NCBI GenBank assembly: GCA_016190995.1
Contig: JACPPN010000141.1
Location: 1 to 45,644 of the forward strand
Reading direction: 5' to 3'
Length of the DNA: 45,644 nt
Origin: Acidobacteriota bacterium
GTDB taxonomy: Bacteria > Acidobacteriota > Vicinamibacteria > Vicinamibacterales > JACPPN01
Shown in pieces: positions 18,069 to 32,219 of the stretch (position 1 is the first letter of the stretch; the number at the start of each line of letters is the position of its first letter). The notes below the pieces were generated by a model that saw only the letters and a program-made list of their open reading frames with translations, was not told the DNA's origin and searched no databases. Position numbers and translations under genes: made by a program.

Positions 18069-18692
18069 TTGGCCTCGGATGATCAGATCCGTGCTCAATT
18101 GCGACGCGTTCTGGTTGAGGAGCACAGGCCTGAACAGCTCTCGAGGCTTTGGCCGCGCACACCGACGATGCGACGAAGTCAGGTTTCTCGTACCCAGCCC
18201 GGTGGAACGCCGTTGCAGCGAGAAGACCGCTGGACTGCAGATCGCGGTTCCTCGTCCACTTCGTCTCGCACTCCTACGGCGCGCCTAGACGAACTCCACA
18301 AACACATAGCCTATTCAAGAAGATTAGCGCGCTTGTGGGAATTCATCGAGGAGAACTATTGGAAGACTGACCTTCGTCTCCCCGAAGCAGCTCGAGCTGC
18401 AGGAGTAAGCAGAGACTATCTGAACGTGCTGCTCAGACAATTCGCGGGGATGACGTTCAGGCAGCTTCTCAACAGATATCGCGTGGAAAAATGTCTCGAC
18501 GCGATCCGCGAGAGAGATTATTCCCTGACTGAAACCTCCAGCATGTGCGGCTTTGCCAGTCTGACGACCTTCGAACGACATTTCAAACGCTGGACTGGCC
18601 GCCTTCCAAAGGACTACAGGAAGTGGTTCCTGGAGTGCTACACTCACGGCGCACAAAGAACCAAGCGTGACCGCAGGGGTGACTCCGTCTGA
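18069..18692 (+). CDS. AraC-family transcriptional regulator
   Basis: A 207-aa ORF from a TTG; the N-terminal 70 residues are low-complexity and the true start may be later. Residues 75-185 form the double helix-turn-helix: LWEFIEENYWKTDLRLPEAA, then AAGVSRDYLNVLLRQFAGMTF, RQLLNRYRVEKCLDAIRERD, then CGFASLTTFERHFKRWTG and LPKDYRKWF. All core features of the AraC DNA-binding domain are present; no ligand-binding domain is. It lies just upstream of the gas vesicle locus on the same strand and could regulate it, though more than 500 bp intervene. Confidence 0.8.
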   Translation: MASDDQIRAQLRRVLVEEHRPEQLSRLWPRTPTMRRSQVSRTQPGGTPLQREDRWTADRGSSSTSSRTPTARLDELHKHIAYSRRLARLWEFIEENYWKTDLRLPEAARAAGVSRDYLNVLLRQFAGMTFRQLLNRYRVEKCLDAIRERDYSLTETSSMCGFASLTTFERHFKRWTGRLPKDYRKWFLECYTHGAQRTKRDRRGDSV

Positions 18693-19272: not shown

Positions 19273-19902
19273 ATGCGAACCCTCATTCTGGTCCCGATCA
19301 TTCACACCGAACGCGATCTGGGATCGCTCCTAGAGAGAGTGAGGGAGGAGTATGTCCAACGGTACGGCCTGGCGAAGTGGGAACAGCATCGCAAGGCAAT
19401 CCACGACGTCTGGGCGGAGATTCGCCGGCGGCTGAAGGCTCTGGACTTGTCGTATGCGAGTGTCCGCTTGTACCAGGACGGACTGCCTGTGTGTGGGCGG
19501 GAAGTGGACATCATCAAGGAAGTGGCTGCCCAGGGAAGCAAGAATCATCAGCTCCTCTTGGAGCTGATGCAACGGGGAGCCAAGCTGATGGGCACCGAAG
19601 ACCCACAACTGCTTCGAAGGGAGTATCGACTGCTGAAGGACGCCCTCGCCGCTGGCACTCCGCTGGAGGATAGCGGCGTCGCGGTCCGAGAGGACGATCA
19701 AAGCCGGCGCCTGCTGGCCGAACGTGATCGCTATGTCGCCAGACGAATCAAGACCACCTTATTGCGCGGCGAGATTGGCTTGCTCTTCTTGGGTCTGGCC
19801 CATGCCGTGGAGCACCTGCTGGAAGCAGACATCCTTGTGACGAACCTCCTCCCCGCGCTCCGAACGGGACCCGCCGCTGACAGGAACACGCTGAACCGGT
19901 AA
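19273..19902 (+). CDS. Conserved-looking hypothetical protein at the head of the gas vesicle locus
   Basis: A 209-aa protein with no signal peptide. It opens with a strand (MRTLILVPIIHTERDLGSLL), continues with charged helices (YGLAKWEQHRKAIHDVWAEI) and ends with ERDRYVARRIKTTLLRGEIG then LLFLGLAHAVEHLL. 'eRDryva..I...L..g...lflG.aH.vehlL' recalls TraB/PrgY-type domains, where a conserved G-x-x-H ends a strand, but length and other motifs differ. I do not recognise the family. It ends 8 nt before the sigma-54 activator start and is co-oriented with the whole cluster, so a regulatory or vesicle-related role is inferred. Confidence 0.7.
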   Translation: MRTLILVPIIHTERDLGSLLERVREEYVQRYGLAKWEQHRKAIHDVWAEIRRRLKALDLSYASVRLYQDGLPVCGREVDIIKEVAAQGSKNHQLLLELMQRGAKLMGTEDPQLLRREYRLLKDALAAGTPLEDSGVAVREDDQSRRLLAERDRYVARRIKTTLLRGEIGLLFLGLAHAVEHLLEADILVTNLLPALRTGPAADRNTLNR

Positions 19903-19910
19903 GAAGTCCA

Positions 19911-21461
19911 ATGCCTGACCCGGCCTGCGCCCTTGTTGTAGATGACATGGAGGAGGCCCGTTGGGTCCTCTCCAATCTCCTCAGGGGGGAGGGTGTGGTG
20001 CCGGTAGCGGCCGCGAACGGGGAAGAGGCTCTGACCCGCCTTCGGCACCAGTCGTTCAACGTGGTGCTTCTCGATGTCCGCTTGCCGGATATGGACGGTT
20101 TGGCAGTGCTGACGCACATCAAGGGGCAGCAGAAGGACGTGCCCGTGATCATGTTCACGGGGTACGGGACTCCGAAGGACGCGGTCCGCTTGCTGAAAGC
20201 CGGGGCGTACGACTACCTAACCAAGCCCTTCAACAACGACGAGGCCCTCGGGACCATCCGCCGGGCCCTCGAAACATCGCCGCCTGAGCGCGAGTTCCGG
20301 CGATTCCGCGACGAGGCCCCGCGGCCGGCTCCCTTATCTGAAACGATGGGGAGCAGCCATGCTGTTCGAGACCTGATGGTGCAAGTGGCACGGGTCGCCC
20401 CGACGAACTTCTCTGTCTTGATTACCGGTGAGACCGGAGTGGGCAAGGAACTGGTGGCCCGCGCCGTTCATGGGTGTAGCGCCCGTGCTGGCAGGGCATT
20501 CGTGACCGTGGATTGCGGCGCCATTCCGGAGACCCTCATTGAGAATGAGCTGTTCGGACATGAGAAAGGCGCCTTCACCGGTGCCGATCGGGCTATGGCC
20601 GGGGCCTTCGAGCTGGCCCCCGGGGGGACGCTGTTCCTCGATGAGATAGGGAACCTGCCCCTGCCAATGCAGGCGAAGCTGCTGCAAGCCATCGACGAGA
20701 GACGAATTCAGCGGCTTGGCAGTGGGAAGACCCTGCAGCTCGATCTGCGGATACTCGCCGCAACCAACGAAGATCTGCACGCGATGGTGGAGCGACGCAC
20801 GTTTCGCCGGGATCTGTACCATCGCCTGGTGGAGTTCACGATTTCTGTCCCTCCGCTGAGAGAGCGGAAAGAGGACCTTCCGTTCCTCGTCAAACGCTTC
20901 TTGGATCTTACCAATCAGGAATTGGGCAAAAGCGTGCGAGGCCTTCAGGAGGCGGCTTGGAACGAAGTTCAGCTCTACGACTGGCCCGGCAACGTTCGGG
21001 AGTTACGCAATGTTGTTCGCCGTGCGGTGCTGCTCGCCGATAGCAAGGACGAGCTGATCACGTCGCGCCACCTAACCATAGGCGGGCCAACGAGCCAGGG
21101 GCACGGCCGCTACTCGTGCTCACCCATGGATTGCTCGGCTTGCGGTGACGGCTGGTCGCTCGTCTGTGCAGGGCTGCAACAGGATTGGGCCTCATGGCTG
21201 AGCAAGTTTGGCACCCATCCTCCGCTGAAAGAGGCCATGCGGCGAGCGGCAGGTCGGGTGGAGTACGTACTCTTAAACCAGGCGCTGCAACAGGCCAAGG
21301 GCAATAAGGCTGAAGCTGCTCGGCTCCTACATGTCGACTATAAGACTGTTCTTACGAAGTTGAAAGCTCATAGTATTTTCGATCCCGTCAGATCAGAGGA
21401 AGGGGCAGTCCATGACCACCAAGCGCAGCGAGGAGTTCGACGAGGGGAAACGCCGGCTTGA
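19911..21461 (+). CDS. NtrC-type sigma-54-dependent response regulator
   Basis: 516 aa in three parts. The REC domain (1-120) has D55 in VVLLDVRLPD and K105 in YLTKPF. The sigma-54 AAA+ domain (145-380) has Walker A GETGVGKE at 173-180, the GAFTGA loop contacting sigma-54 at 220-225, Walker B GGTLFLDEIG and a DWPGNVRELRN sensor region. The C-terminal Fis-type HTH reads GNKAEAARLLHVDYKTVLTK. Between the AAA+ and HTH parts lies a Cys-rich insert (CSPMDCSACGDGWSLVC) not typical of the family, possibly a metal or redox sensor. Its end overlaps the next gene by 50 nt. It probably activates the vesicle genes once phosphorylated. Confidence 0.92.
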   Translation: MPDPACALVVDDMEEARWVLSNLLRGEGVVPVAAANGEEALTRLRHQSFNVVLLDVRLPDMDGLAVLTHIKGQQKDVPVIMFTGYGTPKDAVRLLKAGAYDYLTKPFNNDEALGTIRRALETSPPEREFRRFRDEAPRPAPLSETMGSSHAVRDLMVQVARVAPTNFSVLITGETGVGKELVARAVHGCSARAGRAFVTVDCGAIPETLIENELFGHEKGAFTGADRAMAGAFELAPGGTLFLDEIGNLPLPMQAKLLQAIDERRIQRLGSGKTLQLDLRILAATNEDLHAMVERRTFRRDLYHRLVEFTISVPPLRERKEDLPFLVKRFLDLTNQELGKSVRGLQEAAWNEVQLYDWPGNVRELRNVVRRAVLLADSKDELITSRHLTIGGPTSQGHGRYSCSPMDCSACGDGWSLVCAGLQQDWASWLSKFGTHPPLKEAMRRAAGRVEYVLLNQALQQAKGNKAEAARLLHVDYKTVLTKLKAHSIFDPVRSEEGAVHDHQAQRGVRRGETPA

Positions 21462-22011
21462 AGAAATCGGGCGCAGGCTCGGGAACCTGTTCGGAAAGCC
21501 AGGCCCAGCCAAGAGGCAGCAGTCCGGGCTTGGCGCGTTTCTCGGCGGGCTCGGCGGCCTCATCGAACAGGTGAGCGACCTGGCAGAGAAGGCCGAACAG
21601 GCGGGAGGCGAAGTGACCGAGACCGGCGAGTTCGGTGTGGGATCGGAGAAACCGGTCCGGGCGGTGTACGGGTTTACGGTCAAGGTCGGTCTCGGCGAGA
21701 AAGGGCTCAAGGTTGAACCTTTCGGAAACGTCCGCAAAGACGAGCACAGCGGTCAGGTTGTCGTGAGACCGATTCGGGAGCCGATGTCCGATGTGTTCGA
21801 CGAACCGGACCACATTCTGATTGTGGCCGAGGTGCCGGGGATCATGCAGGAGGATGTCCGGCTGGAACTGCACGAGGACATCCTCACGCTTGCCGCGGAG
21901 CGGGGCGATACGAGATACCGCAAAGAAGTGCTCTTGCCGAGGAGTGTTTCACCCGACAAGATGAGTTTCAGCTGTCGCAATGGGATTCTGAACGTCAAGC
22001 TCCCCAAGTAG
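21412..22011 (+). CDS. gvpH: Hsp20/alpha-crystallin-like gas vesicle protein GvpH
   Basis: A 199-aa product. The ATG lies inside the activator's 3' end, behind AGAGGAAGGGGCAGTCC. Residues 1-65 are charged helix and a Gly/Leu stretch (LGAFLGGLGGLIEQVSDLAE). Residues 110-199 are an alpha-crystallin-like domain: EPMSDVFDEPDHILIVAEVP, then DVRLELHEDILTLAAE and MSFSCRNGILNVKLPK, with the GILNVKLPK edge strand typical of Hsp20. Halobacterial GvpH has the same architecture and acts as a chaperone for other Gvp proteins. The long N-terminal extension and context support GvpH over a generic Hsp20. Confidence 0.85.
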   Translation: MTTKRSEEFDEGKRRLEEIGRRLGNLFGKPGPAKRQQSGLGAFLGGLGGLIEQVSDLAEKAEQAGGEVTETGEFGVGSEKPVRAVYGFTVKVGLGEKGLKVEPFGNVRKDEHSGQVVVRPIREPMSDVFDEPDHILIVAEVPGIMQEDVRLELHEDILTLAAERGDTRYRKEVLLPRSVSPDKMSFSCRNGILNVKLPK

Positions 22012-22036: not shown

Positions 22037-24199
22037 ATGGCTAAAGATGCGGACACTAGGGAGATGAACGCCGACGGCACCCTGCACCTGAAAGTGACCG
22101 AGGCGCTCGCCAAGGACGTCGGTCGAGCGCTGGCCAGGATGGATCCTGCTGATATCAAGGCCCTTGGAGCTGAGATTGGCGACATCGTGGAGGTTTCCGG
22201 AAAGCGCAGCACCGCCTGCAAGCTCATGCCGGCTTACAAGGAAGAACGCGCGGGGTCCCGGATCCAGCTCGACGGCCTCTCGCGGACAAATGCAGGCGTG
22301 GCTCTCGACGATGTCATATCGGTGCGCAAGGTGCGCGCGCAGCCCAGTCAGCGGCTAGTCCTGTCTCCCACTACCGTTGCCCCGACGGACCGCGACCTGA
22401 CCTACATCGGGAACTTGCTTGATGGCCTGCCGGTGATGGAAGGCGATCAGATTCGGGCCATCCTGTTCGGGAGCCGTCACATCGACTTTGTCGTCCGGGA
22501 GACCGGCCCCAAGGGGCCGGTTATCATCGTGCCCACGACGGCTCTCAGAGTGGAACCGCCGCGCGCGGAAAAGGATGCTCACCGGACCGGCCGTCCCACC
22601 CTGTCCTACGAGGACATCGGCGGGCTCAAGCGCCAGCTCCAGCGCGTGAGAGAAATCATCGAGCTCCCCTTGCGCTATCCGGAAGTGTTCGCCCGCCTGG
22701 GGATTGACGCACCCAAGGGGGTTCTCCTCCATGGACCGCCGGGGTGCGGGAAGACGCTGATCGCGCGGGCCGTTGCCCACGAAACGGACGCGAGCTTCTT
22801 CGCGATCACCGGGCCGGAAATCGTCCACAAGTTCTATGGGGAGAGCGAGGCTCACTTACGCAGGATCTTTGACGAGGCCACCAAACGCGCCCCGAGCATC
22901 ATCTTCATTGACGAGATCGACGCCATCGCCCCCCGTCGCGAAACCGTTGTTGGTGACGTGGAGAAGCGGGTCGTCGCCCAACTGCTGGGCCTAATGGACG
23001 GCCTCAAAGCTCGCGGGCAGGTCCTCGTCATTGCGGCGACCAACCTCCCCAACGCCCTCGACCCGGCGTTGCGGCGGCCCGGGCGCTTCGATCGGGAGAT
23101 TGTCATTCCCATCCCGGACCGCCATGGTCGGCTGGAGATCTTGGAGATTCACAGCCGGGGCATGCCGTTGGCCAAGGATGTCGATCTCGTCTATCTGGGT
23201 GAGATCACCCACGGTTTCGTGGGCGCCGATCTGGAAGCGCTCTGCCGTGAGGCGGCCATGAACTGCCTGCGGCGGATCATGCCCGAGATTGATTTTGCGC
23301 AAGCGATGATCCCTCGCGCGGCGCTGGCGGAGCTCGAAGTCCGGCGGGAGGATTTCCTGTCGGCGTTGCGTGAAGTGGAACCCTCGGCCTTGCGCGAAGT
23401 CTTCGTCGAGATGCCCAGTACGACCTGGGATGATGTCGGCGGGCTCGAAGACGTGAAACGGCTGCTCCGAGAGGCCGTGGAGTGGCCGGTCAAGTACCCG
23501 GACCTGTTCGCGGCGGCCGGTGTGAAGCCGCCGAAAGGGATCGTGCTCACCGGGCCGCCGGGCTGTGGCAAGACGCTCCTGGTCCAGGCTCTGGCCAATG
23601 CCACCCAGGTGAATTTCATCGCGGTGAAAGGCCCGGCGTTGTTGTCGAAGTATGTCGGCGAATCGGAACGGGGTGTGCGAGAGGTGTTCCGCAAAGCCAA
23701 GCAGGCATCTCCGTGCATCGTCTTTTTTGACGAGATCGACGCCTTGCTCCCGACGCGCTCGAGCGGCGCTACAGACTCTCACGTCAGTGAACGGGTCGTT
23801 GGACAGTTCCTGGCTGAGTTGGACGGGGTGGAGAAGCTCACGGGCGTGCTCGTCGTGGCGGCGACGAACCGGCCGGACATCCTTGACCCGGCCCTGATGC
23901 GCGCGGGGCGCCTGGACGTGGTGGTGGAGATCTCGCAGCCCAATGAAGAGGAACGTCTGGCAATCCTCAAGGTGCACACGCGTGGCAAATCCGTGAGTAC
24001 GAACGTGTGTCTTGAGGCGGTCGCTGCTCAAACCGACGGCCTGACCGGCGCCGATCTCGAGGCGATCTGCCAGCGCGCCGCGCTGAACGCCGTTCGAGAA
24101 CTGATTTCTGCGAGCCCGGATGTGGCAGACGGCAAGGACATCGCTGTGGTGATTGAACGCCGCCACCTTGAAACGGCTGTGCAGGAGAGCAACCGGTGA
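22037..24199 (+). CDS. CDC48/p97-like double AAA+ ATPase
   Basis: 720 aa with full CDC48 architecture. The N-domain (10-190) starts LHLKVTEALAKDVGRALARM and ends in the strand VIIVPTTALRVEP. D1 has Walker A GPPGCGKT (about 232), Walker B IIFIDEIDAI and the sensor AATNLPNALDPALRRPGRFD. D2 has GPPGCGKT (about 505), IVFFDEIDAL and AATNRPDILDPALMRAGRLD. CDC48 proteins unfold or remodel substrates with ATP; bacterial copies often reside in gas vesicle clusters, presumably as assembly or disassembly chaperones. The stop overlaps the next gene (GTGA). Confidence 0.95.
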   Translation: MAKDADTREMNADGTLHLKVTEALAKDVGRALARMDPADIKALGAEIGDIVEVSGKRSTACKLMPAYKEERAGSRIQLDGLSRTNAGVALDDVISVRKVRAQPSQRLVLSPTTVAPTDRDLTYIGNLLDGLPVMEGDQIRAILFGSRHIDFVVRETGPKGPVIIVPTTALRVEPPRAEKDAHRTGRPTLSYEDIGGLKRQLQRVREIIELPLRYPEVFARLGIDAPKGVLLHGPPGCGKTLIARAVAHETDASFFAITGPEIVHKFYGESEAHLRRIFDEATKRAPSIIFIDEIDAIAPRRETVVGDVEKRVVAQLLGLMDGLKARGQVLVIAATNLPNALDPALRRPGRFDREIVIPIPDRHGRLEILEIHSRGMPLAKDVDLVYLGEITHGFVGADLEALCREAAMNCLRRIMPEIDFAQAMIPRAALAELEVRREDFLSALREVEPSALREVFVEMPSTTWDDVGGLEDVKRLLREAVEWPVKYPDLFAAAGVKPPKGIVLTGPPGCGKTLLVQALANATQVNFIAVKGPALLSKYVGESERGVREVFRKAKQASPCIVFFDEIDALLPTRSSGATDSHVSERVVGQFLAELDGVEKLTGVLVVAATNRPDILDPALMRAGRLDVVVEISQPNEEERLAILKVHTRGKSVSTNVCLEAVAAQTDGLTGADLEAICQRAALNAVRELISASPDVADGKDIAVVIERRHLETAVQESNR

Positions 24200-25038
24200 A
24201 GGAATCGCAAGACGCGACCACGGCCACCGGCGTCTACCTCTACTGCCTGGCGCGTCCCACGTGCCTCTCAGTTGTGACAGATCTCGCTGAGCACGGTGTT
24301 GGCGTCGATGAGGGGTACGGGGTGTCCTCGCTGGAGCACGATGGGGTGGTTGCCGTTGTCGGGCGGGTCGATCCCGGTGAGTTTCACGATGAGAACATGC
24401 AGACGTTGAAGTGGGTTGGTCCCCGTGCTCTGCGTCACGAAGCCGTTGTAGAAGCAATTATGGTCACATCCCCGGTCCTGCCGGTCAAATTTGGGACGAT
24501 CTTCAGCTCGCTGACGAGTCTCGAAAGTCTGCTGGCCCGCCATCACGACACCATCTCGCGAACTCTGGAGGAACTGTGCGACAAGGCCGAGTGGAGCGTG
24601 AAGGGCTACCTCGAGGAAGAGGCCGCCCGCCGACATCTCGCTGCTGCGGACCTCGCCGTTCAATCCCGGCTTGCGCGGCTCTCGCCGGCGCCGGGCGCGC
24701 GCTACTTTCAGCAGAAGCAAGTGGACGCCATGATTGACGGGGCCCTGCGGGTGTGGGTGAAGAACGTGACCCAGGACATCCACGCGGCGCTCGCGGCGCA
24801 TTCTGCGGAGTCGACCAAATTGAGCATCCGATCCAGCACCGCGAGCGCACGCTCGGAACCACCGATCCTCAACGACAGCTTCCTGGTGAGCCGGTCTGCG
24901 TTGCCCGGCTTTTGCGCCGCTGTTGAAGGTCAGAAACGAGCTTACAGTGAGAACGGTCTGACGCTAGAAGTACGAGGGCCCTGGCCGCCCTACAATTTTT
25001 GTCCGAATCTCACCGGTTCTGGCCCGGACGATCGATGA
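24196..25038 (+). CDS. gvpF/gvpL: Gas vesicle protein GvpF/GvpL (first copy)
   Basis: A 280-aa product from a GTG overlapping the CDC48 stop. GVYLYCLARP opens the N-terminal ferredoxin-like domain; then VVAVVGRVDPGEF, LRHEAVVEAIMVTSPVLPVK and FGTIFSSLTSLESLL, where 'h..v...' and 'vlPv.FGTif' are hallmark GvpF/L motifs. The C-terminus LTLEVRGPWPPYNFC is the invariant 'G.WPPYnF' of the family. GvpF/L proteins interact with the shell protein GvpA and take part in nucleating the vesicle. A second, shorter family member lies at 30355. Confidence 0.93.
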   Translation: MKESQDATTATGVYLYCLARPTCLSVVTDLAEHGVGVDEGYGVSSLEHDGVVAVVGRVDPGEFHDENMQTLKWVGPRALRHEAVVEAIMVTSPVLPVKFGTIFSSLTSLESLLARHHDTISRTLEELCDKAEWSVKGYLEEEAARRHLAAADLAVQSRLARLSPAPGARYFQQKQVDAMIDGALRVWVKNVTQDIHAALAAHSAESTKLSIRSSTASARSEPPILNDSFLVSRSALPGFCAAVEGQKRAYSENGLTLEVRGPWPPYNFCPNLTGSGPDDR

Positions 25039-26567
25039 AAAAGAGCGCCGCTTTCGCCGCAGCGGACGAGCCTTTGACCGACAAGACAGCGACGCTGCGC
25101 CCGGCCACGCCGTTGGAAGGCTGGTACGAGAGACTCTACACGATGCTCTTGGCGAGTATCCCATTCTCGCTCATCGTGATCGACCGGTCGCTGCAGATCG
25201 TCTCCGCCAACCGCAATTTCCTCGAGAAATCGCGGCGTCGCGAGCGCGATACGCTGGGTGCTCGCGTCAGTGAGATCTTCCCGAGCGCGATCTTGGGTTA
25301 CACACGCCTGGAAGCCAAGATCCAGAGGGTCTTCGAAACCGGAAAGCCGCTGGACGGCGAGCAAATGACCTACCGCGCACCTGGTATCCCGACGCGGATC
25401 TATTACTACACGGTTGTCCCGATCAAACGGGACGACGGGATGGTCGAGAACGCGCTGCTCCTGATGGACGACATCACCGAGAAGGTGAACCTGATCGAAA
25501 AGACCCGCTGGATCGAAGGCCACCTGGCGAGTGTGGTTGAGAATGCCAACGACCTCGTGATCTCCACCGATTCAGAGGGGCGCGTCATCACGTGGAATCC
25601 GGCTGCGGAGCACGTCTCTGGCTATCGAGCCGAGGAAGTGGGAGGACGACAGCTCGCCGACCTGTGCGACCCGGGCCAGCGACAAGAGATGACAGCGATC
25701 ATTCAGCAGCTCGTCACCGGACACGAGGTGAAGTCCCTTGAACTGAACCTTCTCGCGAGTTCCGGGAAGTCGGTTCCGGTTGCCTGGTCGTGTTCGCCGA
25801 TGCGCGACGACTCGGGGCACGTGAGTGGCGTCGTGGCGGTTGGACGAGACCTGTCTGAGCGCCGGGCGTTCGAGATGCAGCTGTTCCAGAGCGAGAAGCT
25901 CGCTGCCCTGGGCATCATGGCGGGGGGCATCGCTCATGAGCTGCGCAATCCCCTCTCGGTCAGTTTCTCCGCGGCACAGTTTCTGCTCGCGCAGCCACTG
26001 GACGAGACGTTCCGCGAGGAATGCATCCAGAAAGTCATCAGCGGCATCCAGAGGGCGTCTACGATCATCGAGACGCTGCTGCACTTCGCCAAGCCCTCGG
26101 AAAACGCTCGACTACAACCGGTCGACCTGGGGGCGCTGGTGCGGGAGACCGTGCGTCTTGTCGCCCACCAAGCGAGACTCCAAAAGGTCAAGCTGAGTCT
26201 GCACTCTTCCCTGTCGCCCGTGTCGATCCTGGGGAATGCGAACCTTCTGCAACAGGTGGTCATGAACCTGATCTTGAACGCCTGCCAGGCGATGCCCACC
26301 GGTGGCGACCTCGCGATCGCGGTGGACCACGAGGAGGCCGATGCAATCGTGCGTATGCAGGATTCGGGTTGCGGGATCTCGCCGACGAACCTGAGAAAGA
26401 TCTTTGACCCGTTCTTCACCACACGGCCGATCGGGAGTGGCACAGGCCTGGGGCTGACCATGAGCTACACGATTGTGGAACAACATCGGGGCAGCCTTGA
26501 GGTAGAAAGTGTGGAAGGCCAGGGCAGTACGTTTACCGTCCGCCTACCGCTCGCGCCATGGGGCTAG
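25035..26567 (+). CDS. PAS-domain sensor histidine kinase
   Basis: 510 aa from the ATG at 25035, which overlaps the GvpF/L stop (ATGA); the longer ORF start is rejected. There is no membrane segment, so it is cytoplasmic. Two PAS domains come first (about 45-160, SLIVIDRSLQIVSANRNFLE; about 165-285, NDLVISTDSEGRVITWNPAA). HisKA carries the phospho-His near residue 300 in GGIAHELRNPLSV. HATPase_c has the N box NLILNACQAM, then DSGCGI and GTGLGLTMSY. The second PAS resembles oxygen- or redox-sensing types but shows no haem ligand I can identify. It probably phosphorylates the next gene's receiver and/or the NtrC-type regulator, linking vesicle synthesis to a cytoplasmic signal. Confidence 0.92.
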   Translation: MKKSAAFAAADEPLTDKTATLRPATPLEGWYERLYTMLLASIPFSLIVIDRSLQIVSANRNFLEKSRRRERDTLGARVSEIFPSAILGYTRLEAKIQRVFETGKPLDGEQMTYRAPGIPTRIYYYTVVPIKRDDGMVENALLLMDDITEKVNLIEKTRWIEGHLASVVENANDLVISTDSEGRVITWNPAAEHVSGYRAEEVGGRQLADLCDPGQRQEMTAIIQQLVTGHEVKSLELNLLASSGKSVPVAWSCSPMRDDSGHVSGVVAVGRDLSERRAFEMQLFQSEKLAALGIMAGGIAHELRNPLSVSFSAAQFLLAQPLDETFREECIQKVISGIQRASTIIETLLHFAKPSENARLQPVDLGALVRETVRLVAHQARLQKVKLSLHSSLSPVSILGNANLLQQVVMNLILNACQAMPTGGDLAIAVDHEEADAIVRMQDSGCGISPTNLRKIFDPFFTTRPIGSGTGLGLTMSYTIVEQHRGSLEVESVEGQGSTFTVRLPLAPWG

Positions 26568-27019
26568 GACATAGGATTACATGGGTGATGCGACGGTTGA
26601 GTGCGGCGGCGACGGCTCGGTGTGTCCTCGTTGTAGACGATGACGCGGATGTGTGCTGGGCCTTGGACAGGCTGCTGCAGGGCGAGGGCTTCACGGTCTT
26701 GACGGTGGGGAGCGGCGCCGAAGCCCTCGCGGCCCTCAAGGAGACAGTGTTCCGTGTGATCCTCGTCGATGCCAAGCTCGCGGACATCGAAGGGATCGAT
26801 CTGGCGCAACGCATTCAGGCTGAAACACCGAGTAAGGCTCCGCTGATCTTGGTCTCCGGGTACTTCTACGCTGACGACAAGGTCGTGCAGGAGTGCTTGG
26901 GGAAAGGGCTCTTTTCCACCTTCGTCACGAAGCCGTTTCTTCACGAGGATCTGCGCCGAGCCGTTCGAAAGGCCCTATGGAGAGGAGCCGGCGTCGCGAG
27001 TATGGAGTGCCTTCCATAG
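26558..27019 (+). CDS. Single-domain response regulator of the gas vesicle locus
   Basis: A 153-aa product. The ATG at 26558 overlaps the kinase end by 10 nt; an internal ATG at 26588 is equally possible and would remove a 10-residue lead. The REC domain has the acidic triplet VVDDD, phospho-acceptor D71 in VILVDAKLAD, Ser in LILVSGYF and Lys in TFVTKPFLHEDL. No effector domain is present. Beside a kinase without a receiver and an NtrC-type activator, it could be a competing phosphate sink or relay partner. Confidence 0.88.
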   Translation: MGLGHRITWVMRRLSAAATARCVLVVDDDADVCWALDRLLQGEGFTVLTVGSGAEALAALKETVFRVILVDAKLADIEGIDLAQRIQAETPSKAPLILVSGYFYADDKVVQECLGKGLFSTFVTKPFLHEDLRRAVRKALWRGAGVASMECLP

Positions 27020-27310
27020 CGCCGCCTCCCCAGTATCATGATGCACCAACTGGGTCTGACAATCCACGCGACCCGTCACGCCAACGGCTTCTCACCCAGC
27101 ATAGGTTTCCGATTTCATTATCTTGCCTGGAATTCGACGACCGAGTCGTTTGCCAGGCTTCGCTCGCGGGCAACGGTGACGTGAGAAACTCGAGGTCTCG
27201 TCGTGCGCACACTTCTTGCTAGTTCCCTTCCGGGTCCCTCCCTGGACGCGCAGTGCCCAATGCCGTCTTCTCAGAAATCTATCTCAAGGGGAGAAAGGAG
27301 GTGAGTGCGG
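27020..27310 (+). promoter_or_regulatory. Leader region of gvpA
   Basis: About 290 bp without a gene between the receiver gene and gvpA, the largest gap inside the cluster and the natural site for the structural-gene promoter. I found no correctly spaced -24/-12 (GG-N10-GC) element; the nearest, TGGACGCGCAGTGC at 27243, has spacing of 9. A strong AAAGGAGGT ribosome site (27294-27302) ends the region. Confidence 0.5.
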
Positions 27311-27529
27311 TTGGCCAAAGTACAGAAATCGACGGACTCCTCAAGCTTGGCAGAAGTCGTGGACCGGATCCTGGAAAAAGGGATCGTGATCGACGCGTGG
27401 GCCAAGGTGTCGCTGGTCGGCATCGAGCTACTCTCGATCGAGGCGCGTGTTGTGATCGCGTCGGTCGAGACCTATCTGAAGTACGCGGAGGCGATCGGTC
27501 TTACAGCCAGCGCGGCTGCGCCGGCGTAG
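27311..27529 (+). CDS. gvpA: Gas vesicle major shell protein GvpA
   Basis: 72 aa. The TTG at 27311 is chosen over the tracked GTG at 27305 because it is 8 nt from the AGGAGGT site (the GTG is only 2 nt away), and [20 protein letters not shown] matches the family's usual start. The body is the invariant GvpA fold: [20 protein letters not shown] then [20 protein letters not shown] and YAEAIGLT, the amphipathic helix-beta-hairpin-helix that polymerises into the ribbed, gas-permeable shell. Length is normal. A TTG start on the most abundant protein of the locus is unusual. Confidence 0.96.
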
Positions 27530-27617: not shown

Positions 27618-28649
27618 ATGATGGGCACTAGCTTTAGAGACGAGATGCAGGCACTGACCGACAGCATCCTCACCTCGACGCGAGCGCGCAAGGGTACGGT
27701 GGACACGATCAAAGCGCAAGCCGACAGCATGTTGACGGCGTTTGCCCGGGACCGTGCGGCGGCGGCGGAGACCCAGAACGCCGCTCGATCGGCCGAGCGC
27801 CAGGCCAGAGCCACGGGCCGTCGGGCTCGCGTCGTGGAGGTCCGAACGATGCGCCAACGGTTTCGCCGCGACCACGAGCGGATGTGGCGAGATCTCCCGC
27901 GGCGGCTCGCCCAAACCGACAGGACCATCGTCGCCTATGTGGCATCCCGCTTGGCTGACTCGGCAACAGTCCGTCGCCGGATGGCCAAGGCCCAAGACCG
28001 GATGGCGAAATCGCAACGGGACGGGCTGGCGGCCGGCCGCCGGAGCCGCTCCGGAGCGGTGGTCGATCTCACGGACGGCTTTGGTACGGCCCGCCGAGTC
28101 AGCGCACAGCGGCTTGCGGGAGGCCTGGAAGCATTCATGACAGAGCTGCAATCCCGCGTAGCCAGCCTGCTCGCCAATGCACGCACGGCTCGCACGGAGG
28201 GCCGACGCGAAACGGCGAAGGAACTGGAACAGGTGATCACAGCCGTGCGAAACCGAACGGACGCGATTGCGGCCGACACGCGAGGGCTCTTGAATGGATT
28301 TCGGCGATCGCACGCCGACATGGCCGGCCGACTCCAGGACGACCTAACCTCTGGCGCAAAAGAGCGCCGCGCCGAAGTCGGTCGCCTGCTGGCCGGCTTC
28401 AGATCCTGGCTTGGGGCACTCTCGGAGGATCTTCTGGCCGCCCACCACATCTGGAATAGCTTGCCGCCCGTCCAGCCCGCCGTCGCGACGCGGCGAGCGA
28501 CCCCCGCGATGCGGGCCGGGGCCGTGGGAGGCGATCGGTGGGCGAAGGCGCGTGTGCAGGCGGAAGCAGCCGCACGAAGCGAAGCCGAGGAAGACAGAAG
28601 CAAGCGAGAGGCGCGCGCGACCGGCCGAAAAGGCAAGAGTGCACCCTAG
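27618..28649 (+). CDS. gvpC: GvpC-like repetitive helical protein
   Basis: 343 aa, almost entirely Ala/Arg/Glu-rich helix, between gvpA and gvpN where gvpC commonly lies. Loosely repeated units carry a hydrophobic 'LL..F/aR' core followed by Met/Leu heptads: ADSMLTAFARDRAAA, VASLLANARTARTEGR, TRGLLNGFRRSHADMAGRLQ and VGRLLAGFRSWLGALSEDL. GvpC wraps the outside of the vesicle and stiffens it using such amphipathic repeats. The C-terminal 60 residues are basic and disordered-looking (KREARATGRKGKSAP). Repeat spacing is irregular compared with the 33-residue cyanobacterial repeats, so this is called by context plus pattern. ATGATG offers two starts. Confidence 0.65.
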   Translation: MMGTSFRDEMQALTDSILTSTRARKGTVDTIKAQADSMLTAFARDRAAAAETQNAARSAERQARATGRRARVVEVRTMRQRFRRDHERMWRDLPRRLAQTDRTIVAYVASRLADSATVRRRMAKAQDRMAKSQRDGLAAGRRSRSGAVVDLTDGFGTARRVSAQRLAGGLEAFMTELQSRVASLLANARTARTEGRRETAKELEQVITAVRNRTDAIAADTRGLLNGFRRSHADMAGRLQDDLTSGAKERRAEVGRLLAGFRSWLGALSEDLLAAHHIWNSLPPVQPAVATRRATPAMRAGAVGGDRWAKARVQAEAAARSEAEEDRSKREARATGRKGKSAP

Positions 28650-28736
28650 GAACGCTGATCCAGCCAGCTCTTTTTGCTGCGCGCTGAGAAGAGTGGCTGG
28701 TCGGCCGCGTCGGCGCGCGAGGAGCCTGTGCCGCGT

Positions 28737-29771
28737 ATGAGCTACCAGGAAGAACTGACCGTCCTGACCTTGGAGAAGCAGCCCGACTTCGTTGAGACTC
28801 CCTACATCGAGAGTCTCACCACGCGGGCCCTCGACTATGTCAGAGCGGGGTATCCGGTCCATTTCTGCGGGCCTGCCGGCACCGGTAAGACTGCTCTGGC
28901 GATGCACGTGGCCGCCAGGCTGGGCCGGCAGGTCATTTTGATCCACGGCGACGACGAGTTTGGGAGCTCCGACCTGATTGGCGGACAGTTGGGCTATCGA
29001 TCGACCAAGGTGATTGACAACTTCATCCACTCGGTCCTGAAAAAAGAAGAGAGTGTCTCCAAGCAGTGGGTGGACAACCGGCTGACGACGGCGTGCAAAT
29101 ACGGATTCACCCTCATCTACGACGAGTTCACCAGGTCTCGGCCCGAGGCCAACAACGTGCTGCTCGCGATTCTGGGAGAGCGATTGCTCGAGCTGCCCAG
29201 CGTGCGTCTCGGAGAGGGCTACATTCAGGTGCACCCGCATTTCAGCGCCATTTTTACCAGCAACCCTGAGGAGTACGCCGGCGTCCACAAGACTCAAGAT
29301 GCCCTGATGGACCGCATGATCTCGCTCAAGCTGGATCACCCTGACCTCGAGACCGAGGTGGGTATCACGCAGGCGAAATCGGGCATCCCATGGAGAGACG
29401 CGAAAGCGATTGTGGCTATCGTCCGCGAGTTCCGCACCCTCGGCGTGAACAACGCGCGCCCGACGATCCGAGCCTGCATCATGCTCGGCCGTATCGTCGC
29501 GATGCGGGGCGGCACGGTGGCCGCCGGCGATCCGACGTTTCGGGAGCTGTGCCGCGACGTGTTGAACGCTGACTACATCAAAGTCACGCGCGATGGGCAA
29601 GCGGCCGGTCTCGAGCGGCTGGATGAGATCATCGAAAAGTGCTGCCCCCGCTCGTCCACACTCGTTGTGATCGCGGCGGAATCCCCAAGGACGGCTCCAC
29701 CACCCGCCCGCCGCAGGCAGCCGCTTGTCAACGTGGCATCGGCAGCGGAGGGAGCTCATCATGGGGCTTGA
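28737..29771 (+). CDS. gvpN: Gas vesicle AAA+ ATPase GvpN
   Basis: 344 aa from the ATG at 28737 (MSYQEELTVLTLEKQPDFVE); the longer ORF start lacks support. MoxR-like AAA+ ATPase: Walker A CGPAGTGKTALAMHVA, then the GvpN-specific GDDEFGSSDLIGGQLGY, Walker B TLIYDEFTRSRPEANNVLL, and HPHFSAIFTSNPEEYAGVHK with DRMISLKL as sensor region. GvpN is needed for vesicles to mature from small bicones to full size. The C-terminal tail past about 300 is Pro/Arg-rich and variable. It overlaps the next gene by 11 nt. Confidence 0.95.
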   Translation: MSYQEELTVLTLEKQPDFVETPYIESLTTRALDYVRAGYPVHFCGPAGTGKTALAMHVAARLGRQVILIHGDDEFGSSDLIGGQLGYRSTKVIDNFIHSVLKKEESVSKQWVDNRLTTACKYGFTLIYDEFTRSRPEANNVLLAILGERLLELPSVRLGEGYIQVHPHFSAIFTSNPEEYAGVHKTQDALMDRMISLKLDHPDLETEVGITQAKSGIPWRDAKAIVAIVREFRTLGVNNARPTIRACIMLGRIVAMRGGTVAAGDPTFRELCRDVLNADYIKVTRDGQAAGLERLDEIIEKCCPRSSTLVVIAAESPRTAPPPARRRQPLVNVASAAEGAHHGA

Positions 29772-30087
29772 CAGGCGGGGTGTGCAACAGATTCGAACCA
29801 TGGCGAGGCTGGTCGATGGTCGCCGCAGCCGCACCGCGCACGGCGCGTTGCTGGAGCTTTCCATGCTCGAAATGGAAAAGCAGCGACTCCTGCGGGAGAT
29901 GCAGCGAGCCGAACGGCGATGCACCGAGATTCGGAGGCGAGTGGCTGACATCAACGTCAAGGAACAGCGACTCCACCGGTTTACCGAAAATCGTGGGAGC
30001 GCGGCGCCAGAGCAACCGCTCGCCTCACCACTTCCGACCTATGCAGTCCCGACGGAGAAGCTGCGAAGAAGGCGGCTGTCTTACTGA
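29761..30087 (+). CDS. Small coiled-coil protein of the gas vesicle operon
   Basis: 108 aa. The ATG at 29761 (GGGAGCTCATC upstream) overlaps the gvpN end. Residues 15-85 are a near-continuous charged helix: ALLELSMLEMEKQRLLREMQ and RRCTEIRRRVADINVKEQRL, with heptad Leu/Ile spacing, so a coiled coil is likely. The tail is Pro-rich. I do not recognise a named Gvp family. Its tight packing between gvpN and the second gvpF/L suggests an accessory role in assembly. Confidence 0.7.
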   Translation: MGLDRRGVQQIRTMARLVDGRRSRTAHGALLELSMLEMEKQRLLREMQRAERRCTEIRRRVADINVKEQRLHRFTENRGSAAPEQPLASPLPTYAVPTEKLRRRRLSY

Positions 30088-30139: not shown

Positions 30140-30355
30140 ATGAGGAACATTCCGACTTCTCGTGATGCCAAGTCCTCCTTGCGAGGAGCGGCGTTTCAAA
30201 CGGTGTGGACCCTGAACAGCCGCGGCGTCGCGTGTCGCATGCGCAAAGAGATCATGACGCTGCGGCGACTGCGTCAGGATCCATTGGATCTGGTGAGCGG
30301 ACACGCCCTGCGCGGCTGGATGCGTATCCGCCGTGGCACTGTCATGGTGACCTGA
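30140..30355 (+). CDS. Small basic protein of the gas vesicle operon (uncertain)
   Basis: A 71-aa open frame, MRNIPTSRDAKSSLRGAAFQ to RRGTVMVT, strongly basic. Its TGA overlaps the ATG of the next gvpF/L (TGATG), which favours a real, coupled gene. The 52-nt gap before it has no strong ribosome site. The family is unknown. The alternative is that it is only the leader of the downstream gene. Confidence 0.4.
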   Translation: MRNIPTSRDAKSSLRGAAFQTVWTLNSRGVACRMRKEIMTLRRLRQDPLDLVSGHALRGWMRIRRGTVMVT

Positions 30356-31158
30356 TGTCAACAGAAACGCGTGACATCGCGCGCACAACGACGCCAAGGC
30401 CGGCGGCCAGGCTGGACTCCGGGCCGGCACGCTACGTGTACGGCATCACTTACGGGAGCATGCATCGGCGGTACGTAGGTCTTGGCCTCGATGGCGCTAC
30501 GGTGTACGCCATCGGCCTCGGGCCGATCGCCGCGCTGGTGAGCAACGTAGCCACGAAGCGGTTTCGACCCGAGCGCGGCAAGCTCGCGGCCCACCACGGC
30601 GTCATCAAGAGGTGTGCCGGGGAAGGAGCGGTTCTGCCGGTGGCGTTCGGGACCATCGCTGACAGCGACGACGCCGTACGAGAGATCCTGGAGAAGAACA
30701 GGGAGGCGTTCCTGGAACAATTGAATGGCGTTCGCGGGAAGGTCGAGATGGGCCTCCGCGTCGCCTGGGACGTCCCCAACATCTTCGAATATTTCGTGAA
30801 ACATCACGTGGAGCTGGCAGCGTTGCGCGATCACGTGTTTGGCAAACAGCGCGGTCCCTCCCATGAGGACAAGATCGAGCTGGGTCGCTTGTTCGATCAC
30901 TTGCTGGGCGAGGAACGGGAGGCTCACACCGAAAAGGTGGAAGACATCTTGTCGGCGCGGTGTGCCGAGATCAAGCGCAATCCGCCGCGGAACGAACGGG
31001 AGGTGATGAACCTCGCCTGTTTGGTCGAACGGGAGGCGCTGAAAGGATTCGAGGACGGCGTGTTTGCGGCGGCCAGGCTCTTCGATAACAACTTCGCCTT
31101 TGATTTCAACGGACCATGGGCTCCGTACAATTTCGTCAGCGTGGCGCTGGAGCTGTGA
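30355..31158 (+). CDS. gvpF/gvpL: Gas vesicle protein GvpF/GvpL (second copy)
   Basis: 267 aa from the ATG at 30355 (MSTETRDIARTT). Family motifs in order: RYVYGITYGSM opening strand, VYAIGLGPIAALVSN, KLAAHHGVIKRC, then GAVLPVAFGTIADSDDAVRE, DVPNIFEYFVKHHVELAALR and the terminal FDFNGPWAPYNFVSVALEL. The 'G.WaPYNFV' end and 'vLPv.FGTia' are diagnostic of GvpF/L. It diverges strongly from the copy at 24196, so the two probably play distinct roles, one perhaps GvpF-like and one GvpL-like. The stop GTGA may couple to gvpG. Confidence 0.94.
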   Translation: MSTETRDIARTTTPRPAARLDSGPARYVYGITYGSMHRRYVGLGLDGATVYAIGLGPIAALVSNVATKRFRPERGKLAAHHGVIKRCAGEGAVLPVAFGTIADSDDAVREILEKNREAFLEQLNGVRGKVEMGLRVAWDVPNIFEYFVKHHVELAALRDHVFGKQRGPSHEDKIELGRLFDHLLGEEREAHTEKVEDILSARCAEIKRNPPRNEREVMNLACLVEREALKGFEDGVFAAARLFDNNFAFDFNGPWAPYNFVSVALEL

Positions 31159-31166
31159 CCGCTCGC

Positions 31167-31565
31167 ATGTTCCTCGTGGACGATTTATTGCTGGCGCCGT
31201 TCTCAGGCCTGCTTTGGGTCTTCAAACAGATCTATGAGGCGGCCGAGCAGGAACAGGCCCAAGAGGCGGAATCCCTGACCGAGTCCCTCGGCGAGCTGTA
31301 CCGAAAGCTCGAGACCGGAGCGGTGACGGAAGAAGAGTTTGCAGCCGGAGAAAAGATGCTCCTCGACCGACTGGAGGCAATCCAAGGCCGGGACGAAGAT
31401 GTCCAGGAAGAGCCTGAGGATGAATCCGAAGTTACTCAAGCCGAAGACGAGGAGATCGAGGATGTCCCTGCAGAGATAGAGGACCATTTCGACGGGCAAG
31501 AGAGCGAGGACGAGCCCAAAGAGAACGGGATCGACCAAGACCCCGAAGCGAGCCATAACAAATAG
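31167..31565 (+). CDS. gvpG: Gas vesicle protein GvpG
   Basis: 132 aa. MFLVDDLLLAPFSGLLWVFK then QIYEAAEQE and LYRKLETGAVTEEEFAAGEK with MLLDRLEAI is the GvpG pattern (short hydrophobic N-terminus, then charged helices with 'l...G.iteeEf...E..LL.rL'). The last 50 residues are extremely acidic (EEPEDESEVTQAEDEEIEDV), much longer than usual GvpG, which is about 80-90 aa. A GTG at 31155 overlapping the previous stop (GTGA) is an alternative start. GvpG is an essential minor assembly protein working with GvpF/L. Confidence 0.87.
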   Translation: MFLVDDLLLAPFSGLLWVFKQIYEAAEQEQAQEAESLTESLGELYRKLETGAVTEEEFAAGEKMLLDRLEAIQGRDEDVQEEPEDESEVTQAEDEEIEDVPAEIEDHFDGQESEDEPKENGIDQDPEASHNK

Positions 31566-31628: not shown

Positions 31629-31982
31629 ATGGAGTCAGGTAACGAACCCGGGCCGGCGGAGTTGCGCGCGAGCGAGCCCGGAACGAGCGAGCGTAGTGTT
31701 GGCGAAGTTGGAGGGCCGCTAAAATCCGCAAGGGCTTCCGGGTCCGAGAGACCTGGCGGGGCGGACCAGATAGCGCTCGAACGGCTTCTCGCGATGGCAC
31801 AACGATACCGGAACGAAGGACGACTGTGGCTGGCGATGGAGCTGTACTGGAAGCTCGTCGAGAAGCACCCAGAAGCGCCGCAATCGGACGTTGCACAGCG
31901 CGCGTTGCTGAAGCTGGCCGGCGACTATGGGCGCGACGGGTTCCGCCACGTCGCTCGCGGCATCTACGAGCGCCTGTTGTAA
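31629..31982 (+). CDS. Small TPR-like protein of the gas vesicle operon
   Basis: 117 aa behind AGAGGAGGGCAAG. Residues 1-45 are disordered (Glu/Ser/Gly/Pro). Residues 47-117 form helix pairs, QIALERLLAMAQRYRNEGRL then WLAMELYWKLVEKHPEAPQS and VAQRALLKLAGDYGRDGFRH, matching a tetratricopeptide-like repeat ('A..y...g....A...y..l...hPd.p....A'). No named Gvp family fits. Its place between gvpG and the gvpJ-like gene suggests a protein-protein adaptor in vesicle assembly. Confidence 0.7.
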   Translation: MESGNEPGPAELRASEPGTSERSVGEVGGPLKSARASGSERPGGADQIALERLLAMAQRYRNEGRLWLAMELYWKLVEKHPEAPQSDVAQRALLKLAGDYGRDGFRHVARGIYERLL

Positions 31983-31997
31983 CCGGGAGGGGGACCC

Positions 31998-32219
31998 GTG
32001 GCAAGGTGGGATCCAGAAAGCGTCTCGCTGTGCGAGACCCTTGATCGGGTGTTGAACAAGGGAGTGGTGGTTGGAGGGGAGATCGTGATCTCAGTGGCGG
32101 AAATCGATCTTCTCTACCTCGGCGTACAGCTCATGCTCACTTCGGTCGAAACCGCATCCCAGCTCAAACTGACCTTGAGACCGCCGGCGTGGGCTGGCTC
32201 GTCGCCGAGCATCGTATGA
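31998..32219 (+). CDS. gvpJ: GvpA/GvpJ-family minor gas vesicle protein (first)
   Basis: 73 aa from a GTG with GGGAGGGGGACCC upstream. SLCETLDRVLNKGVVVGGEI then VISVAEIDLLYLGVQLMLTS and VETA is the GvpA-superfamily fold with the 'lDRvLdKGvvv.g...isva.idLlyl...lml.sv' of the GvpJ/M/S branch. These minor homologues help nucleate or cap the shell. The Gly-Gly in place of GvpA's DAW sets it apart from the major protein. The next gene's ATG overlaps its stop (ATGA). Confidence 0.9.
   Translation: MARWDPESVSLCETLDRVLNKGVVVGGEIVISVAEIDLLYLGVQLMLTSVETASQLKLTLRPPAWAGSSPSIV

Follow-up and report, generated by a model that had tools for sequence, protein, structure and literature searches.

A protein family of bacterial gas vesicle gene clusters with probable remote kinship to TraB/TIKI proteins

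A gene ahead of a gas vesicle cluster

What is the protein encoded immediately ahead of a gas vesicle (gvp) cluster in an Acidobacteriota genome, and what might it do there? The window analyzed here, the whole 45,644-nt stretch of contig JACPPN010000141.1, holds an ORF for 209 amino acids, which we call X209. The genes 3' of it form a full gvp cluster, with an NtrC-type activator first:

19273..19902, + strand, X209, TraB/TIKI-like gvp-associated protein of 209 aa (ORF and homologs)
19911..21461, + strand, NtrC-type sigma-54 response regulator (receiver, sigma-54 AAA and Fis HTH), 8 nt downstream of X209
21412..22011, + strand, GvpH-like Hsp20 protein
22037..24199, + strand, CDC48-type AAA+ ATPase, adjoining X209 directly in many other clusters
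24196..25038, + strand, GvpF/L
24999..26567, + strand, PAS sensor histidine kinase
26558..27019, + strand, single-domain response regulator
27305..27529, + strand, GvpA
28674..29771, + strand, GvpN-like AAA ATPase
30205..31158, + strand, second GvpF/L
31116..31565, + strand, GvpG
31998..32219, + strand, second GvpA-type gene

A GvpK-like gene is also present in the cluster by homology. The start of the NtrC-type gene at 19911 bears out the 8-nt gap reported in the first-pass annotation. An AraC-family regulator gene (HTH_18) lies on the same strand at 18069-18692, approximately 580 nt upstream of X209.

The ORF is intact, running from an ATG at 19273 to a TAA ending at 19902 with no internal stops, and its coding periodicity is normal (GC content of 0.70/0.40/0.73 at the three codon positions, as in the neighboring genes). 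X209 is not a chance ORF because homologs of approximately 31 to 64% identity to the window protein retain 20 invariant columns over 20 sequences; we regard the gene as confirmed. No clear ribosome-binding site was seen 5' of the ATG, and the start is backed by the homologs starting at the same residue.

The protein has so far gone unnamed. A Pfam search with the window sequence returned zero matches even at E≤10, and searches against NCBIfam and the PDB sequences gave nothing significant or usable. The records of Octadecabacter, Methylocella and Methylosinus annotate it solely as "hypothetical protein," and among the open-access papers searched, we found none naming the family in gvp clusters. 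GvpF/L, GvpG, GvpH, GvpK and GvpN share operons and co-occurrence with X209, but no sequence relation to them was found, in agreement with the earlier remark that no known Gvp family matched.

Occurrence with gas vesicle genes

We found approximately 23 further homologs beyond the window protein. A first scan gave three relatives, from Betaproteobacteria, Nitrosomonas and a delta-proteobacterial metagenome-assembled genome (MAG), and the in-depth search covered two phyla, many of their genomes being MAGs, and collections of plasmids, phages and viral contigs. The presence of gas vesicle genes was scored by GvpL/F, GvpA or GvpN profiles, and associations were evaluated with Fisher or hypergeometric tests.

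In the home phylum, a profile search detected X209 in 8 of 247 genomes, all of them among the 36 carrying GvpL/F (Fisher p 1e-7, shared ancestry ignored). A draw of 396 genomes added three positive genomes, each with gvp genes, bringing the count to 11 of 396, with gvp genes in 11 of 11. The second phylum gave a similar picture: X209 was present in 7 of 237 genomes, all among the 13 positive for GvpL/F (p 2e-10, shared ancestry ignored). An eighth match there, in G429 (E 2e-4), was identified as a histidine kinase by its ORF and surroundings and was discarded. Among 72,556 plasmids, X209 was found on four, two from Methylocella tundrae and one each from Methylosinus sp. C49 and Octadecabacter arcticus; all four belong to the 25 records with gvpN (p 1e-14, shared ancestry ignored). 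The phages and viral contigs contained no relatives.

Every genome or plasmid with X209 that could be checked for gvp genes thus also carries them; in the genomes and plasmids searched, the family is encoded in gvp clusters and is absent from gvp-free genomes. The exception is locus L002, uninformative about the link because the contig with X209 stops inside the activator gene, before any gvp gene; no GvpA was found in that draft genome. The first-pass annotation had placed the protein in gas vesicle loci and had named homologs lying mostly outside such loci as grounds for abandoning the idea; the homologs found lie with gvp genes, and X209 is almost certainly a gvp-dedicated family.

Relationship to the TraB/TIKI superfamily

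X209 contains four segments with conserved motifs:

19273..19323, + strand, N-terminal strand and 'PIIHTExDxG' (H11 and G17 invariant, D15 nearly so)
19468..19485, + strand, strand 2 with 'LYQDGL' (Q68 and D69 invariant; a candidate acidic catalytic residue)
19576..19602, + strand, strand 3 with 'GAKLMGTED' (E109 invariant; paired with TraB 'GLET' by our own alignment)
19711..19803, + strand, 'LLxxRDxxIAxRI...GLLFLGLAH' (R151, D152, R158, G174 and H177 invariant), matching TraB RN...GxxH

The residues P8, H11, G17, W47, Q68-D69, N91, G102-A103, E109, R151-D152, R158-I159, G174 and H177 are invariant in 20 of 20 homologs. AlphaFold predicted an alpha/beta protein with confidence for both the window protein and a divergent member (mean pLDDT 85.9 and 92.6), and in the models H11, D69, E109 and the GxxH each sit where a predicted strand ends. 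Neither a signal peptide nor a membrane helix is apparent in X209, the hydrophobic N-terminus being modeled as a core strand.

The C-terminal 'lflGlaH' segment had earlier been noted as reminiscent of TraB-type folds. Among 17 members searched, the Pfam family TraB_PrgY_gumN (PF01963) was matched weakly by 10 (best E 5e-4) and was the only family matched by more than one; the matches always fell in the C-terminal RN..GxxH part and in one register. None reached the curated cut-off of 26.8 bits, the best scoring 20.4 bits. Comparison of an X209 profile with one of 35 TraB sequences using hhalign gave a score of 30.4 over 43 columns, exceeding all of 400 column-shuffled controls (maximum 22.9) and the reversed profile (14.6). 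The associated probability was 21%, a low value owing to the restriction of the alignment to 43 C-terminal columns, and a global alignment was uninformative. Foldseek against the PDB produced no match at E≤0.001 and TM-scores of at most 0.40; among the hits, all at E>0.3, one search placed RRSP and ChaN at ranks 2, 3 and 6, and the other placed RRSP at ranks 1 and 22. Both are members of the TIKI superfamily (PMC6254334). A viral fold library yielded nothing for X209.

We read TraB residues H19, E45, E145, R217-N218 and GxxH243 as corresponding to X209 H11, D69, E109, R151-D152 and GxxH177, where the profile comparison aligns the final RN..GxxH block only and the pairing of E109 comes from our own alignment. 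The order of residues, H..E/D..E..R-N/D..GxxH, is then the same, and the GLET-type Glu and the C-terminal RN...GxxH are retained as E109, R151, G174 and H177 in 20 of 20 homologs, with RD in place of RN. The first GxxH of TraB is PxxH in X209 (P8 in 20 of 20, H11 invariant), and the strand-2 Glu, present in 35 of 35 TraB sequences, is replaced by the invariant Q68-D69. As the cut-off is not reached and the first GxxH and the strand-2 Glu are missing, X209 does not qualify as a TraB protein. The two also differ in length, the PF01963 domain spanning 263 positions and X209 209 amino acids, and in distribution, PF01963 being found in 116 of 237 genomes whereas X209 is confined to replicons with gvp genes. 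X209 has a candidate counterpart of the site of two His and two acidic residues in RRSP, erythromycin esterases and ChaN, but it is without their extra domains and without an apparent secretion signal. RRSP activity requires both His and both Glu (PMC6254334).

The lack of a significant match in the Pfam, NCBIfam, PDB-sequence and Foldseek searches could mean that the fold is unrelated and the TraB likeness a convergence of motifs, X209 then being a new gvp protein family whose function could not be guessed. However, TraB alone was matched repeatedly and in one register, the reversed and shuffled controls failed to reproduce the match, and TIKI members were among the leading hits of each fold search; we consider an unrelated fold rather improbable. 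The earlier hint at TraB thus holds as a remote TraB/TIKI homology of the GxxH segment, although no formal threshold is passed, and X209 is probably a remote TraB/TIKI relative.

Gene order and possible function

The first-pass annotation had X209 leading the cluster. This is true of the window, but the gene is internal or terminal in other clusters. CDC48 directly follows X209 in nine loci, overlapping it or lying within 31 nt, and precedes it in one; the order in Methylosinus is gvpH - X209 - CDC48. Among home-phylum genomes with gvp genes, X209 was present in 7 of 7 with CDC48 at the gvp locus against 1 of 29 others (p 1e-6, ancestry ignored). We dropped the idea of CDC48 as an obligate partner because two carriers of X209 show none: no CDC48 is annotated in the gvp cluster of Octadecabacter arcticus, and a search of G170 detected none. 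O. arcticus counts gas vesicles among its main characteristics, and its genome is rich in transposable elements, with fragments of gene clusters scattered (PMC3646047). Its X209 (L040, 13974-14591) is intact on plasmid pOA238_160, isolated among IS elements; the gvp cluster is on this plasmid too, approximately 23 kb away. In Methylocella tundrae NZ_LR536451, the CDC48 adjoining X209 (L041, 14590-16799) is annotated in several pieces; it is one gene in NZ_CP139088, and the split is a frameshift or sequencing error.

Our preferred reading, to which we give about an even chance, is that X209 is a small, gvp-dedicated, cytosolic and divergent relative of TraB/PrgY/TIKI proteins, most likely a peptidase-like hydrolase working with CDC48 and Hsp20/GvpH. 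It builds on the operon coupling to CDC48 and Hsp20 together with the hydrolase-like site: X209 appears to keep an active-site-like set of His, acid, Arg and His. What the data show is the confinement to replicons with gvp genes, the operon coupling to CDC48 or the sigma-54 regulator, the conserved residues and the remote profile similarity to TraB; a TIKI fold, catalytic activity, the identity of the substrate and a partnership with CDC48 are inferred. The CDC48 unfoldase would extract or unfold Gvp proteins, X209 as a putative hydrolase would act on them, and the purpose could be quality control, maturation or clearance of Gvp proteins. That X209 is an active hydrolase is about as likely as not, and action on clients presented by CDC48 is a more tentative proposal, which we hold to be on the doubtful side.

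The changes of the first GxxH to PxxH and of the strand-2 Glu to Asp raise the alternative that X209 is noncatalytic, its TraB-like fold having degenerated and serving as an adaptor or assembly factor that binds Gvp proteins or CDC48. One member of the TIKI superfamily is reported to lack the catalytic motif (PMC6254334). Nevertheless, 20 of 20 divergent homologs keep two His, two acidic residues and an Arg-Asp pair unchanged, beyond what a scaffold would need, and we find this alternative unlikely.

The main rival to the pairing with CDC48 is a regulatory role alongside the NtrC, PAS-kinase and receiver genes. X209 could then, for example, break down or detect a signal molecule or clip a regulator, much as PrgY/TraB shuts down pheromone signaling. 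PrgY is a TraB-family peptidase supposed to degrade a peptide signal (PMC7117660). In most of the loci where CDC48 is not the next gene, X209 is followed by the sigma-54 activator, directly so in the window, L002, L003 and L014-L016, with a 4-nt overlap in L002, L003 and L016, and receivers or kinases are close by in most loci. Against this, CDC48 is the neighbor in many clusters, and the search for a sigma-54 promoter upstream of X209 in the window gave nothing above chance. PrgY, moreover, is membrane localized, with a presumed site of action outside the cell, whereas neither the sequence nor the model of X209 shows an apparent signal peptide or membrane helix; we rejected a PrgY-like extracellular role on this ground. 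The link to vesicle regulation suggested in the first-pass annotation is one candidate explanation; partnership with CDC48 and Hsp20 fits the gene order at least as well, and we regard a regulatory role as possible but fairly unlikely.

The phylogenetic tree divides X209 into two groups (support 100/99), the window type and another type comprising six sequences. In the related genomes G511 and G535, a single gvp cluster holds one copy of each type; the first adjoins Hsp20/CDC48, the second lies next to the sigma-54 regulator, and these differing neighbors within one cluster suggest specialized paralogs. The pairs are located as follows:

L088, 1653-2231 and 5429-6142, X209 paralogs
L089, 3409-3984 and 7390-8100, X209 paralogs

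The first copy in G535 contains a premature stop codon and is possibly a pseudogene or an assembly error.

Returning to the preferred reading, CDC48-type gvp clusters might go as far as to encode their own unfoldase-peptidase pair, CDC48 and a cytosolic TraB/TIKI-like protease, for taking apart or proofreading the vesicle shell. In the usual view, gas vesicles disappear through collapse or dilution, and the pair, an improbable and speculative extension, would if true provide an active route of disassembly. X209 adds a conserved, unnamed accessory gene, probably tied to a hydrolase superfamily, to the gvp operons of at least two phyla. If it is catalytic, gas vesicle maturation or removal in bacteria becomes open to testing through it. 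This is relevant for buoyancy control and for engineered acoustic reporters, whose yield the deletion of accessory genes can alter; in Serratia, gas vesicle yield rose when a hypothetical protein was lost (PMC10344784).

The window cluster contains further genes without an assigned family. A 343-aa protein without a Pfam family lies between gvpA and gvpN (27618-28649); L089 has a weak relative close to gvpN, and at the corresponding position in Methylocella and Methylosinus there are hypothetical genes that differ in length. A 117-aa ORF of unknown family is found between gvpG and the gvpA-type gene (31629-31982). A 120-aa protein after gvpN (29725-30087), also without a Pfam family, has weak homologs at the corresponding position in L028 and L087 and is another conserved unnamed gvp accessory gene.
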